The notes under the pieces: generated by a model
Databases searched by the model: none
Told to the model about the DNA's origin: nothing
Seen by the model: the letters and a program-made list of their open reading frames with translations, nothing else
Part shown: piece after piece, positions 38,344 through 43,467 of the stretch
Numbering within the stretch: the stretch's first letter is position 1
Layout: every line of letters begins with the position of its first letter
Source: Candidatus Krumholzibacteriia bacterium
GTDB lineage: Bacteria > Krumholzibacteriota > Krumholzibacteriia > JAJRXK01
Direction: 5' to 3'
Length of the DNA: 47,478 nucleotides
NCBI GenBank assembly: GCA_029932915.1
Contig: JAOZPE010000002.1
Span: 71,546 to 119,023, forward strand
Translations under genes and position numbers: made by a program

Positions 38344-41151
38344 ATGGACCGCCTTCGACATCGCTTCGGGTACGGGCGGTGGTACGACACCGCAAGCCCA
38401 CCGGCCGTCTGGCCGTGTTCCCGCCGGCCGGGGCCACGGTGGAGGGGATGGCTCGTGCTCGTGGTGGCGGCGATGGTGGCGGGCCTTGCTGGGCCAGTCG
38501 GACCGGCTTCGGCGTGGGCCGGTGCGGGCGGATCCTCCAGCGGAGAGGAAACCCTTCCCGAACGCCCGACTCCGGTGGAGAGGCTGGTGGACGAGGCACG
38601 GCATCTGGCCGCCGACAGCCCGCGGGTCGAGTTGGAGGAGATGGGACGCACCGCCGAGGGCGACCCGCTCCTGCTGTTGAGCATCACCGCCGAGGCGAAC
38701 CGTCCACGCCTGGCCTCCCGCCCCGCTCGCATGGAGACGATCATCGACCCGCGTCGCCCGCGCGGCGAGCGCGACGCGGCCATCGAGGCATCGCTGGCCG
38801 CGGTGTGGGTGGTGGGCAGTGTGCACGGGGACGAGGCGAGTGGTTCGGACGCTGCGCTTCTGCTGGCGCGTCATCTGGCCAGCGATGGGAGCGAGCGGAC
38901 GAGGGAGATCCTCTCGCGTTCGGTGGTGCTCATCGAACTGTGCGCCAATCCCTCCGGACGCCGCCGTTTCCTGCAGCACCTGCGTTCGTTCACCTTCTCC
39001 GCCCCGGACGCCGATCCCGAGGCGGTCGAGCACCGGCAGATGTGGCCGGGCGGCCGCACGAACCACTGGTTCTTCGATCTGAACCGTGACTGGGCGCTGT
39101 TGACCCAGCAGGAGACGCGGGCGCGGGTGGCGGCCTGGTTGCGGTGGCGTCCGCAGGTGGTGATCGACCTGCACGAGATGGGGTCGCGTTCGAGCTACTT
39201 CTTTCCTCCTTCGGCTGAGCCGATGAATCCCCTTCTGCCCTCCTCGCTGGGCACGTGGCTGGAGGACTTCGGACGGGCCAATGCCCGGGCCTTCGATCGC
39301 GAGGGCCTGGACTACTACGTCGGCGAGGACTTCGATCTGTTCTATCCGGGCTACGGCGATTCCTGGCCCAGCCTGAACGGCGCGGTGGGCATGACCTACG
39401 AACAGGGAACCAGCCGCGGGATCGAGATGCGCACGCCCACCGGGGTGAGACGGTACGAGGACGCGGTGCGCGGGCACTTCACCGCCGCGCTGGCCACCTG
39501 CCGCCATGCCGCCGCCCGCGGTCCCGAACTGCTTCGCTACCAGGCCGCCTTCTTCGACCAGGCGATGGAGGAGGCAGGCCGCCGCGACGAGCGCGAGTAC
39601 CTCATCGACGGAGCGGTCCACCCGGCGGAGGCCCGACGGCTGGCCACTCTGCTGGCGGCGCAAGGCATCGAGGTGTGGCGGATCGAGAAGCCGCTTCGGG
39701 TGAAGGTCAGCGAGGAGGATGGCGGCGGGGCACGGGAGCACCGCTTCTCTCCCGGCAGCTTCCGCATTCCCCTGCGGCAACCCGCCTATCCCCTCCTGGA
39801 GAGTCTGCTCCGGCGCGAACTGCCGATCGACGAGGACTTCCTCGAGGAAGAACGGACGCGGCGCGACGAGGGCCTGCCGCTGCGCTTCTACGACGTGACC
39901 TCCTGGAGTCTGGCCCTCTCCCACGGTCTGACGCTGTACCGCTCGCGGCGGGAGCTGTCGGGTCTCGGCCGGCGCCTGGAAGAGGCGGGCAGCTTCGCCG
40001 TGTCTGCCGCGGAGCCGCTCGTGTCCGGCTCCGGCACGGCGCCGGGCCTCGAAGTCGGTGCGGCGGCCGCCGTGGACACCGCCGCGGCACACGCGGCCTA
40101 CGGCTACCTCATTCCCTACCGGGACAGTGCCTGCCCAGCCGCACTGGCCTTCCTGTGGAAGAAGGGGGTCCGGGTGCACACCGCCCGGGAGACCTTCCAC
40201 CAGGGAGGGATCGACTATCCCGCCGGGAGCCTGGTGGTGAAGCGCCGGGCCCAGGACGAGGATCTTCCCCTCGATGCGGTGATGGCCGAGGCCGCCGCGC
40301 GCACCGGCGCCCGGGTGCATCCCACCGGCGGAGCGTGGACCGACGAGGGACCTTCGCTGGGGAGCAACCGGGTCGTCCTGTTGAAGCCGCCCCGGGTGGC
40401 GGTTGCGGTCGGACCGCCGCTGAACCCCAGCAGTGTGGGCGCCGTGTTGTGGCTGCTGCGCGAGGAGACCGGGCTGGAGGCGACGGCGGTTCCCTTCGAA
40501 CGGCTCGGACGGATGCACCTGAGGGAGTGGGACGTCATCGTCCTCGCGGACATGCGGGCGGGCGATCGCCGCTTGCCCGAGCATCTGCGCCAGTGGGTCG
40601 AGTTGGGGGGGACGCTGGTGGCCGAGGCCGGGGCGGTCAAGATGCTCACCGGCGTGGAGGACTGGTTGCATGCCTCGCTGGTGGAGGATCTCGGCGGCGG
40701 CGAGGAGGATGCCCAGGGAGACAGCCTGTCCGCGAAGGGATCTTCTCCTTCGGCCTCCGAGCCACAGAATCGCCGCTCCATGCGGGAACCGGGGATGCGC
40801 CCCGAGCGTACGCCGGGAGCCATCTTGCGACTGGAGCTTGCAAAGCACCATTTCCTGAACTTCTCGGCGGGACCCGACGCCCATGCCCTGGTGCTGAGCG
40901 ATCGTCTGCTCCAGGCCGGCGACGGTGACGTGGTGGCCGCCTCCTACGACGCCTTTTCGCCGCGGGTGGCTGGTTTCGTCTGGCCGGAGATGGAGGAGGC
41001 CCTGGCGGGAAGGGCCTGGTCGCTGAGCGAGTCCCATGGGCAGGGGAAAGTGGTGCTTTTCGCCGAGGAGACGGCATTTCGGGGGTCGTGGCCCGTCACC
41101 GAGCGGATGCTCCTGAACGCGGTCCTGTGGGGGCCGAGTCTGGGGCGGTGA
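38344..41151 (+). CDS. Large secreted M14-family metallocarboxypeptidase
   Basis: 935 residues. A basic N-terminus leads into a signal segment (WLVLVVAAMVAGLAGPVGPAS). Zinc ligands are H161 and E164 in SVHGDEASGSDAALL and H277 in VVIDLHEMGSRSSYF; DLNRDWALL precedes the last, and E353 in MTYEQGTSRG fits the catalytic glutamate. After the peptidase domain (about 70-410) comes a long helical/mixed region and a C-terminal GATase-like segment (about 680-800; RVAVAVGPPLNPSSVGAVLW, LGGTLVAEAGAVKML). M14 enzymes release C-terminal residues or trim peptidoglycan peptides. An in-frame start far upstream runs through the DegT gene and is rejected. Confidence 0.88.
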   Translation: MDRLRHRFGYGRWYDTASPPAVWPCSRRPGPRWRGWLVLVVAAMVAGLAGPVGPASAWAGAGGSSSGEETLPERPTPVERLVDEARHLAADSPRVELEEMGRTAEGDPLLLLSITAEANRPRLASRPARMETIIDPRRPRGERDAAIEASLAAVWVVGSVHGDEASGSDAALLLARHLASDGSERTREILSRSVVLIELCANPSGRRRFLQHLRSFTFSAPDADPEAVEHRQMWPGGRTNHWFFDLNRDWALLTQQETRARVAAWLRWRPQVVIDLHEMGSRSSYFFPPSAEPMNPLLPSSLGTWLEDFGRANARAFDREGLDYYVGEDFDLFYPGYGDSWPSLNGAVGMTYEQGTSRGIEMRTPTGVRRYEDAVRGHFTAALATCRHAAARGPELLRYQAAFFDQAMEEAGRRDEREYLIDGAVHPAEARRLATLLAAQGIEVWRIEKPLRVKVSEEDGGGAREHRFSPGSFRIPLRQPAYPLLESLLRRELPIDEDFLEEERTRRDEGLPLRFYDVTSWSLALSHGLTLYRSRRELSGLGRRLEEAGSFAVSAAEPLVSGSGTAPGLEVGAAAAVDTAAAHAAYGYLIPYRDSACPAALAFLWKKGVRVHTARETFHQGGIDYPAGSLVVKRRAQDEDLPLDAVMAEAAARTGARVHPTGGAWTDEGPSLGSNRVVLLKPPRVAVAVGPPLNPSSVGAVLWLLREETGLEATAVPFERLGRMHLREWDVIVLADMRAGDRRLPEHLRQWVELGGTLVAEAGAVKMLTGVEDWLHASLVEDLGGGEEDAQGDSLSAKGSSPSASEPQNRRSMREPGMRPERTPGAILRLELAKHHFLNFSAGPDAHALVLSDRLLQAGDGDVVAASYDAFSPRVAGFVWPEMEEALAGRAWSLSESHGQGKVVLFAEETAFRGSWPVTERMLLNAVLWGPSLGR

Positions 41152-41410
41152 GCCTCGTCCAAGGGCCGGATACCCCCTCGTTTCGACCCTCCTGACCCCT
41201 TTAGGTAGAACTACCCCATTCTCGCCAAGGCGTTGCGCTGGGCGCGGGAATGGTTTCAATTGACGGCGGAGCGGGAGCGCTCCTCGGGGAAACCGCCCCC
41301 GGCCGCAGCGCGGAAACGGCGGGACCAGTTTCAACGACCACGTGCGGGTCGGACCGGTCACAGCGTTTGGGGATGGATGCCGACACACGGGCGCCGTCGG
41401 ATCATCCCGT

Positions 41411-41665
41411 AGGAATCCCTCGCAGGGCGTGGCGAGGATTCTATTTCGCGCTGGGACGGCTGTGAGCGCCTCATGGGGTACTGGGACCAATCCCCATGGC
41501 CAAAGGTCTCAAAGCTTGGGTTCGACCCGCACCCCCTTGCCTCTCTGCTCGACTCATCCGGAATCGGCTCCCGCCGGTAGCACAGCAGCAGCATGGACGG
41601 GTGGAGAGGCAACATCTCCTGTGTGGAGATCGACGAGGCGGGCCAGGGCCCGCCTCGTTTTTTTT
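41411..41665 (+). ncRNA. Candidate structured RNA ending in a terminator
   Basis: Hairpins in order: a bulged stem at 41411-41442 (AGGAATCCCTCGC against GCGAGGATTCT), CATGGGG/CCCCATG at 41472-41498, then two mutually exclusive stems sharing TCTCC (41603-41619 and 41614-41630), then the terminator. Nothing matches tmRNA, RNase P, SRP or 6S RNA landmarks that I know. It could be an independent small RNA or a long structured 3' end of the M14 message. Confidence 0.35.
41633..41665 (+). terminator. Strong Rho-independent terminator
   Basis: ACGAGGCGGGC, loop CAGG, GCCCGCCTCGT, with a run of eight Ts at 41658-41665. It works for rightward transcription only. The nearest upstream gene on this strand ends 480 bases earlier. 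Confidence 0.9.
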
Positions 41666-41768
41666 GTTCGGTGCCTCCACGAAGGGGTTCCTCCGCCTCG
41701 GTCTCGGCCTCGATGCGGCGCTGGAACTCCGGGCACCTTCGGCCGAAGCTTCCTGTCCACTCCGGGCT

Positions 41769-41797
41769 TTGCCCTCCTCCAGGGCGCGGTCTATGCT
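41769..41797 (+). promoter_or_regulatory. Promoter of the LbH acyltransferase gene
   Basis: TTGCCC, exactly 17 bases, TATGCT. Start of transcription would be near 41804, giving a leader of about 100 bases. Confidence 0.6.
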
Positions 41798-41903
41798 GCT
41801 GTCTCTCCGGATGGGTCTGCGCCCATGGTGGGATCCCCCAGGGGCAGGCGGTCTTTCCCGTGCCCCTTCCCTGTCGCATGTCTTCTTCGAGGAGCTGTTC
41901 GCC

Positions 41904-42435: not shown

Positions 42436-43467
42436 ATGCGCGTCGGATTCATCGTCACCCTCTGTGAACAGCTCGAACGCTTCGAGCCCATCCTCCGGCG
42501 GACGCCCGGGGCGCGCTTCCTCGTGCCGGCGGGCCGCTGGCCCTCCCCCCATCACGACTCGCGGCAGAGGATCCTCCAGTGCCTGTACCGGCGCGGACTG
42601 CCACCGGTGACCGAGGCCGGCGGGGACTTCGATCTCGTCGTCACCGCGGGGGAGTCGCCGGCGTCCTCGATCGAAGCGTGGTTGCGGCCGGGGGGGACGC
42701 TGGTCCAGTGGCGCGATCCCTGTCATCCTTCGTTCTCTCCGACGGCGTCGTCGTTGGTGCTGGCCTCCGGGCCCGCGCTGCTTCCCCCGGACGGGGACCT
42801 CCCATCGGCCGTGGTGGGCGACCCCCTGCTGGACACCGCCCTGGAGGCGGGGGCCGCAGTGCGCGCCCGGCGTGCCCTGGGGCTGAGCGTCCCCGCCGAA
42901 CGTCCCCTGGTGCTGGTGCATGCGGAGGCGGGAAGCAGGGCGGTACACGCGCTCGCCGACGCCCTTGCCTCGCTTCGCCTGGACTTCGATGTGGTGGTGA
43001 CAGCCTCCACCGAGGCCCGTCTCGCCCGTTCCGATCCCCTTCCCCGCGCCCTCAGCGGCCCGGGTGTGTCGCGGCCCGGCGAGGACATCCCCCGCGCCGA
43101 ACTGTTGGCCGCGGCCGATCTGGTGCTGGCCGAGGGGGGAGGCCTGTTGGTGGAGGCGGCTGCCCTGGGCAAGCCCGCCTGGGGTCTGGGGGCGTGGAAC
43201 CTTCCCGCGCGGCGCAGCGGTGGGGTGGTGGATCCCGTGCAGGAGGCGCTGCGGCGGTGGCAGTGGGTGGACGACGCCGGTGAGCTGCGCGCACTCGTCT
43301 CCCGCTGCGACGAGGCGAGGAGGGAGTGGGCGGAATGGATCCGTCCGGTGGCCCAGTCGCTGGTCGGAGTGGCCGACGGAGGATCGACGCGCCGCTTCGT
43401 TTCTTCCCTGAGAGTATTGGGACCGCCCGACTTTCCTCTGCCGTCCTCGCGTGTCCGATCGCGATGA
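42436..43467 (+). CDS. GT-B glycosyltransferase-like protein, unknown specificity
   Basis: 343 residues with a two-lobe layout like CDP-glycerol glycerophosphotransferases or UDP-GlcNAc epimerase-like enzymes. The C-terminal lobe has AADLVLAEGGGLLVEAAALG followed by K-P-A-W-G-L, matching the A-D-x-x-(I/L)-(S/T/A)-(D/E)-x-S-x-x-x-E-A pattern, with G in place of the usual S. The N-terminal lobe (about 1-130; FLVPAGRWPSPHHDSRQRIL) is not recognised. Starts at ATG 42436 just inside a hairpin. The end of the gene contains the first copy of a 24-bp tandem repeat. Function as a transferase is inference. Confidence 0.6.
   Translation: MRVGFIVTLCEQLERFEPILRRTPGARFLVPAGRWPSPHHDSRQRILQCLYRRGLPPVTEAGGDFDLVVTAGESPASSIEAWLRPGGTLVQWRDPCHPSFSPTASSLVLASGPALLPPDGDLPSAVVGDPLLDTALEAGAAVRARRALGLSVPAERPLVLVHAEAGSRAVHALADALASLRLDFDVVVTASTEARLARSDPLPRALSGPGVSRPGEDIPRAELLAAADLVLAEGGGLLVEAAALGKPAWGLGAWNLPARRSGGVVDPVQEALRRWQWVDDAGELRALVSRCDEARREWAEWIRPVAQSLVGVADGGSTRRFVSSLRVLGPPDFPLPSSRVRSR

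Follow-up and report, generated by a model that had tools for sequence, protein, structure and literature searches.

A predicted structured RNA of one Krumholzibacteriota family, next to CYTH genes in three relatives and next to a terminator in a fourth genome

The interval 41152-41665 of the window (the whole stretch of 47,478 nucleotides that was analysed) encodes a predicted structured RNA specific to one family of Krumholzibacteriota, a phylum that is known for the most part through metagenome-assembled genomes. Its conserved core of about 190 nt is multi-branched: helix P1 closes it, and inside lie the inner helix P2, which encloses hairpins A and B, and an arm C. The RNA would be transcribed rightward, would end at about 41665 and may be a stand-alone non-coding RNA, its conserved loops A and C serving as contact sites for a protein or for a second RNA; we place the probability of this reading at about 0.5, and it is slightly preferred over an orphaned cis-regulatory leader. 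The studied DNA belongs to contig C47 of a 2.9-Mb genome (98%-complete assembly) of an uncultured Krumholzibacteriota bacterium, and the nearest available relatives are Candidatus Krumholzibacteriota. All the comparative evidence comes from four sequences in draft genomes.

An M14 zinc carboxypeptidase gene lies to the left of the RNA, with its stop at 41151, and a hexapeptide acyltransferase gene lies to the right, starting at about 41904. No plausible protein gene was found between the carboxypeptidase stop and the terminator, as the original prediction of a gene-free interval had it, and a search of the whole window for tRNA and tmRNA returned none. The features are the following:

41183..41211, + strand: weak promoter-like pair TCGACC-17-TAGAAC (consensus scan only, 8/12 matches)
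41313..41332, + strand: second C-type hairpin GAAAC-GGCGGGACCA-GUUUC (83-86% match to hairpin C of two relatives; tentative)
41342..41532, + strand: conserved structured RNA core (covariance model R1 matches in 4/4 family genomes; covariation)
41342-41355/41519-41532, + strand: closing helix P1, 14 bp (pairing probability 1.0)
41357..41457, + strand: inner helix P2 around hairpins A and B (single-sequence folds of 3/4 RNAs, sequences differing)
41370..41408, + strand: hairpin A (upper stem with 100% of cells paired and 3/5 pairs changed on both sides)
41412..41442, + strand: hairpin B (stem kept, loop variable; 8/12 pairs with changes on both sides)
41458..41516, + strand: arm C (6/8 apical pairs with changes on both sides)
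41533..41545, + strand: pyrimidine-rich segment CCCCTTGCCTCTC (directly 3' of P1; CC-rich and at the same place in 4/4)
41537..41612, + strand: 15-bp stem 41537-41551/41598-41612 (window only; fold z -4.4 for 41533-41665)
41614..41630, + strand: small hairpin ATCTCC/GGAGAT (fold of 41533-41665)
41632..41665, + strand: intrinsic terminator (12-bp stem 41632-41643/41648-41659, 4-nt loop, T-run of eight T at 41658-41665)

Most letters of the RNA are not kept among the four genomes, but its shape is. The strands of P1, which defines the ends of the element, differ among the genomes and yet pair in each of them: they read GUGCGGGUCG in the window, GGAGCGCGGACG in G003, GGGGUGCGAG in G002 and GGAGCGCGAG in G001, with the lowest pairs lost in the window RNA. 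P2 joins 41357-41359 and 41361-41366 with 41448-41453 and 41455-41457, and takes a different register in the RNA of G001. Of the four minimum-energy folds, three contain hairpin A, and the fourth RNA is able to pair there; the hairpin's loop of 11 nt, ACACGGGCGCC (41385-41395), holds CGGGCGCC, which is invariant in 4/4. Likewise, the apical loop of arm C holds an invariant GGGACCA, the aligned loops reading (C/U)GGGACCA, and the window loop differs from those of the relatives by one base. Arm C carries a one-sided bulge of 5 nt on its 3' side (41499-41503), and a 3' bulge of 4-6 nt is found in 4/4 folds. All four single-sequence folds have P1, hairpin B and the long, one-sidedly bulged arm C in common. 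Loops A and C thus stay constant while the stems that bear them change, which points to contacts of these loops with some partner, within the RNA or external to it.

The pairing is supported by covariation. In the four-sequence alignment RNAalifold found 44 pairs, 27 of them with changes on both sides, at -50.6 kcal/mol; column shuffles, with the structure re-predicted each time, gave -13.0 kcal/mol (sd 3.2, z -11.8). When 42 consensus pairs were tested, 26 had changed on both sides as against 10.5 in shuffles. The share of cells that paired was 88.6%; it was 74.1% for shuffles and 38-48% for slid controls, the latter being a lenient comparison because the structure was derived from the same sequences. 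Among the RNAs, the distance from loop A to loop C differs by lengths not divisible by three, which argues against a coding explanation.

Each of the four family genomes available has this RNA in the same position, 3' of the M14 carboxypeptidase gene, the carboxypeptidases of the relatives being 47-52% identical to that of the window. The first sign of homology was the pair GGGCGCC...GGGACCA, common to the four gaps; it extends over about 90-100 bases, and the stems around it differ. The gene order in G003 and G001 is carboxypeptidase, gap, CYTH (+), DUS (-) and acyltransferase (+), and the short contig of G002 (JAJRXK010000066.1) has carboxypeptidase, gap and CYTH; the CYTH assignment is by Pfam. 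The RNA of each of the three relatives is 26-54 nt 5' of the CYTH start, with no room for a terminator, whereas in the window 371 nt, which include the terminator, come between the RNA and the next start. One protein search of the window's 98%-complete genome did not find CYTH, and the only DUS found there lies elsewhere (37% identity); the window gap (41152-41903), compared with L065 and L066, held no remnants of CYTH or DUS above noise.

Model R1 matched one copy per family genome (E 5e-38 to 9e-34), scores that are not independent since these four RNAs built the model. When it was searched against 74 genomes of the class outside the family, nothing rose above noise, and 309 further genomes gave nothing, with a prefilter that scored only 6-30 candidates per genome and could miss distant relatives. 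Weak matches elsewhere in the class were rejected, as they lay in coding-like sequence or covered a single hairpin only. Similarly, direct DNA comparison with 98 genomes gave, besides the window itself, only short chance-level matches, and the loci of carboxypeptidase and some acyltransferase genes in other families of the class gave none. A scan of the genome and viral contigs for the loop pattern yielded one locus that passed the covariance model, L095, a known relative; the rest had the letters without the structure.

No family reached the gathering threshold when the window was searched with the Rfam 15 covariance models, and a permissive search of the region and the relatives' loci returned only sub-threshold, chance-level matches, in line with the original prediction, which saw no landmark of a known RNA family. 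RNase P RNA class A (RF00010) and tmRNA (RF00023) were located at other loci in 4/4 genomes. 6S RNA (RF00013) resembles the element in its length of about 200 nt and its long closing helix, but the RNA described here is multi-branched with conserved apical loops and has no match to the 6S model, and a regular 6S RNA lies elsewhere in the genome (G000:C1:64011-64190), as it does in G002 and G003; none was found in G001. CsrB/Rsm-type sRNAs carry a repeated A-N-GGA loop motif. The several hairpins and G-rich loops are similar to those of protein-sequestering RNAs of the CsrB/RsmZ type, but the loops CGGGCGCC and GGGACCA lack A-N-GGA and there are only two or three of them; this identity was therefore rejected. 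Riboswitch-type leaders share with three of the relatives a P1-closed core just 5' of a start codon, but no known aptamer matched, and where CYTH is missing the RNA persists and is followed by a terminator of its own. No paper on RNA elements of Krumholzibacteriota or on a CYTH riboswitch was found in the literature. The closest likeness in kind is to candidate structured RNA motifs from comparative genomics, which are also intergenic, covariation-supported, multi-branched bacterial RNAs with no function assigned (PMC2864571, PMC8040213); the RNA described here differs in having no Rfam 15 match and in being confined, as far as searched, to one candidate-phylum family.

The original prediction was right that something is present in the interval but imprecise on its location, as the core was revealed only by comparison with the relatives. 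Its description of the interval as hairpin-rich holds for the whole, which has more structure than shuffles (z -2.4; 41455-41665, z -3.0), but not for the first 140 bases (z -0.02), and the bulged long stem proposed near 41217-41254 falls in that part. The segment 41290-41340 likewise folds no better than shuffles. These two stretches would suit an explanation by chance GC-rich hairpins without conserved structure, an explanation hardly credible for the interval and already contradicted for the core by the covariation and column-shuffle tests, and by the family-wide model matches, even though the same RNAs built the model. The terminator, as predicted, is real and strong and starts about 480 bases past the carboxypeptidase gene; its fold of -25 kcal/mol (z -4.8) was equalled in stability by 0/200 shuffles. 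Two stems sharing TCTCC had been proposed as competitors that could act as a switch. This is not supported: their competition is unequal, the GGAGA of the first being held in the 15-bp stem with a probability of 0.97-1.0, one arrangement dominates the ensemble, and the stems concerned lie outside the conserved core. The 15-bp stem has no counterpart in the relatives because CYTH occupies that position there.

The original prediction had left two choices, an as yet undescribed small or regulatory RNA or a carboxypeptidase mRNA with a structured 3' region. The former is well supported by the covariation that the homologues do show and by the absence of an Rfam match. The latter, in which a structured 3' UTR ending at the terminator would protect or process the carboxypeptidase mRNA, fits the position of the RNA 3' of that gene in 4/4 genomes; it is less likely since the RNA adjoins CYTH in the relatives, and we regard it as quite unlikely overall, given the 118-210 nt of unconserved sequence from the stop codon to P1 and, in the relatives, the lack of a terminator before the gene that follows the RNA.

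A tentative but credible alternative makes the RNA a cis-regulatory leader for the triphosphatase-like gene CYTH, orphaned in the window by deletion of CYTH and the syntenic DUS; such a leader would putatively sense a metabolite or protein and control the translation of CYTH or readthrough into it. The constant adjacency to CYTH in the relatives favours it, and with P1 as close as 26-54 nt to the CYTH start, the RNA and the gene would very likely share a transcript there. The closed multi-branched core with its invariant loops also resembles aptamers. However, the carboxypeptidase is upstream as consistently as CYTH is downstream, the RNA was never found before any gene other than CYTH (4 family, 74 class and 309 further genomes), and no expression platform is recognisable. 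In the genome where CYTH was not found, the core is kept with its stems paired and is followed by the 15-bp stem and the terminator, and this retention favours an independent RNA. An intrinsic terminator of its own, as expected of a stand-alone ncRNA, is present in the window, whereas in the relatives CYTH follows directly 3'. Against the stand-alone reading stand the weak promoter and the leader-like, terminator-less position in the relatives; moreover, the lost lowest pairs of P1 and the one-base change in loop C make a slow decay of the window RNA after gene loss possible.

Transcript starts can be proposed on weak grounds. The promoter-like pair at 41183..41211 is a weak candidate in the window, and the relatives have a -10-like TAGACT, TAGTAT or TAACTA about 54-75 nt 5' of P1, found by scan or by eye. 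The second GGGACCA-loop hairpin (41313-41332), directly 5' of the core and present in the window alone among the four genomes, is possibly a duplicated loop motif; its pairing probability in longer folds is 0.01-0.28.

The RNA adds to the RNA inventory of Krumholzibacteriota a covariation-supported family that is absent from Rfam. That it forms a new regulatory or ligand-binding class, tied to CYTH in most of the family and turned into a terminator-bearing independent RNA in one lineage, is doubtful; if true, a transition from cis-element to ncRNA would have been caught within one family. The genome with the RNA but without CYTH offers a natural test of action in cis on CYTH against independent action.

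Two minor observations concern the neighbouring DNA. No Pfam match was found for a predicted protein of 343 aa (42436-43467) encoded after the acyltransferase gene and before those that come next. On the minus strand at 41697-41730, a short stretch encoding FQRRIEAETEAE is similar to DNA from two further genomes of the class (L002 and L003); the probable explanation is a fragment of a decayed gene or coding-like sequence of low complexity.
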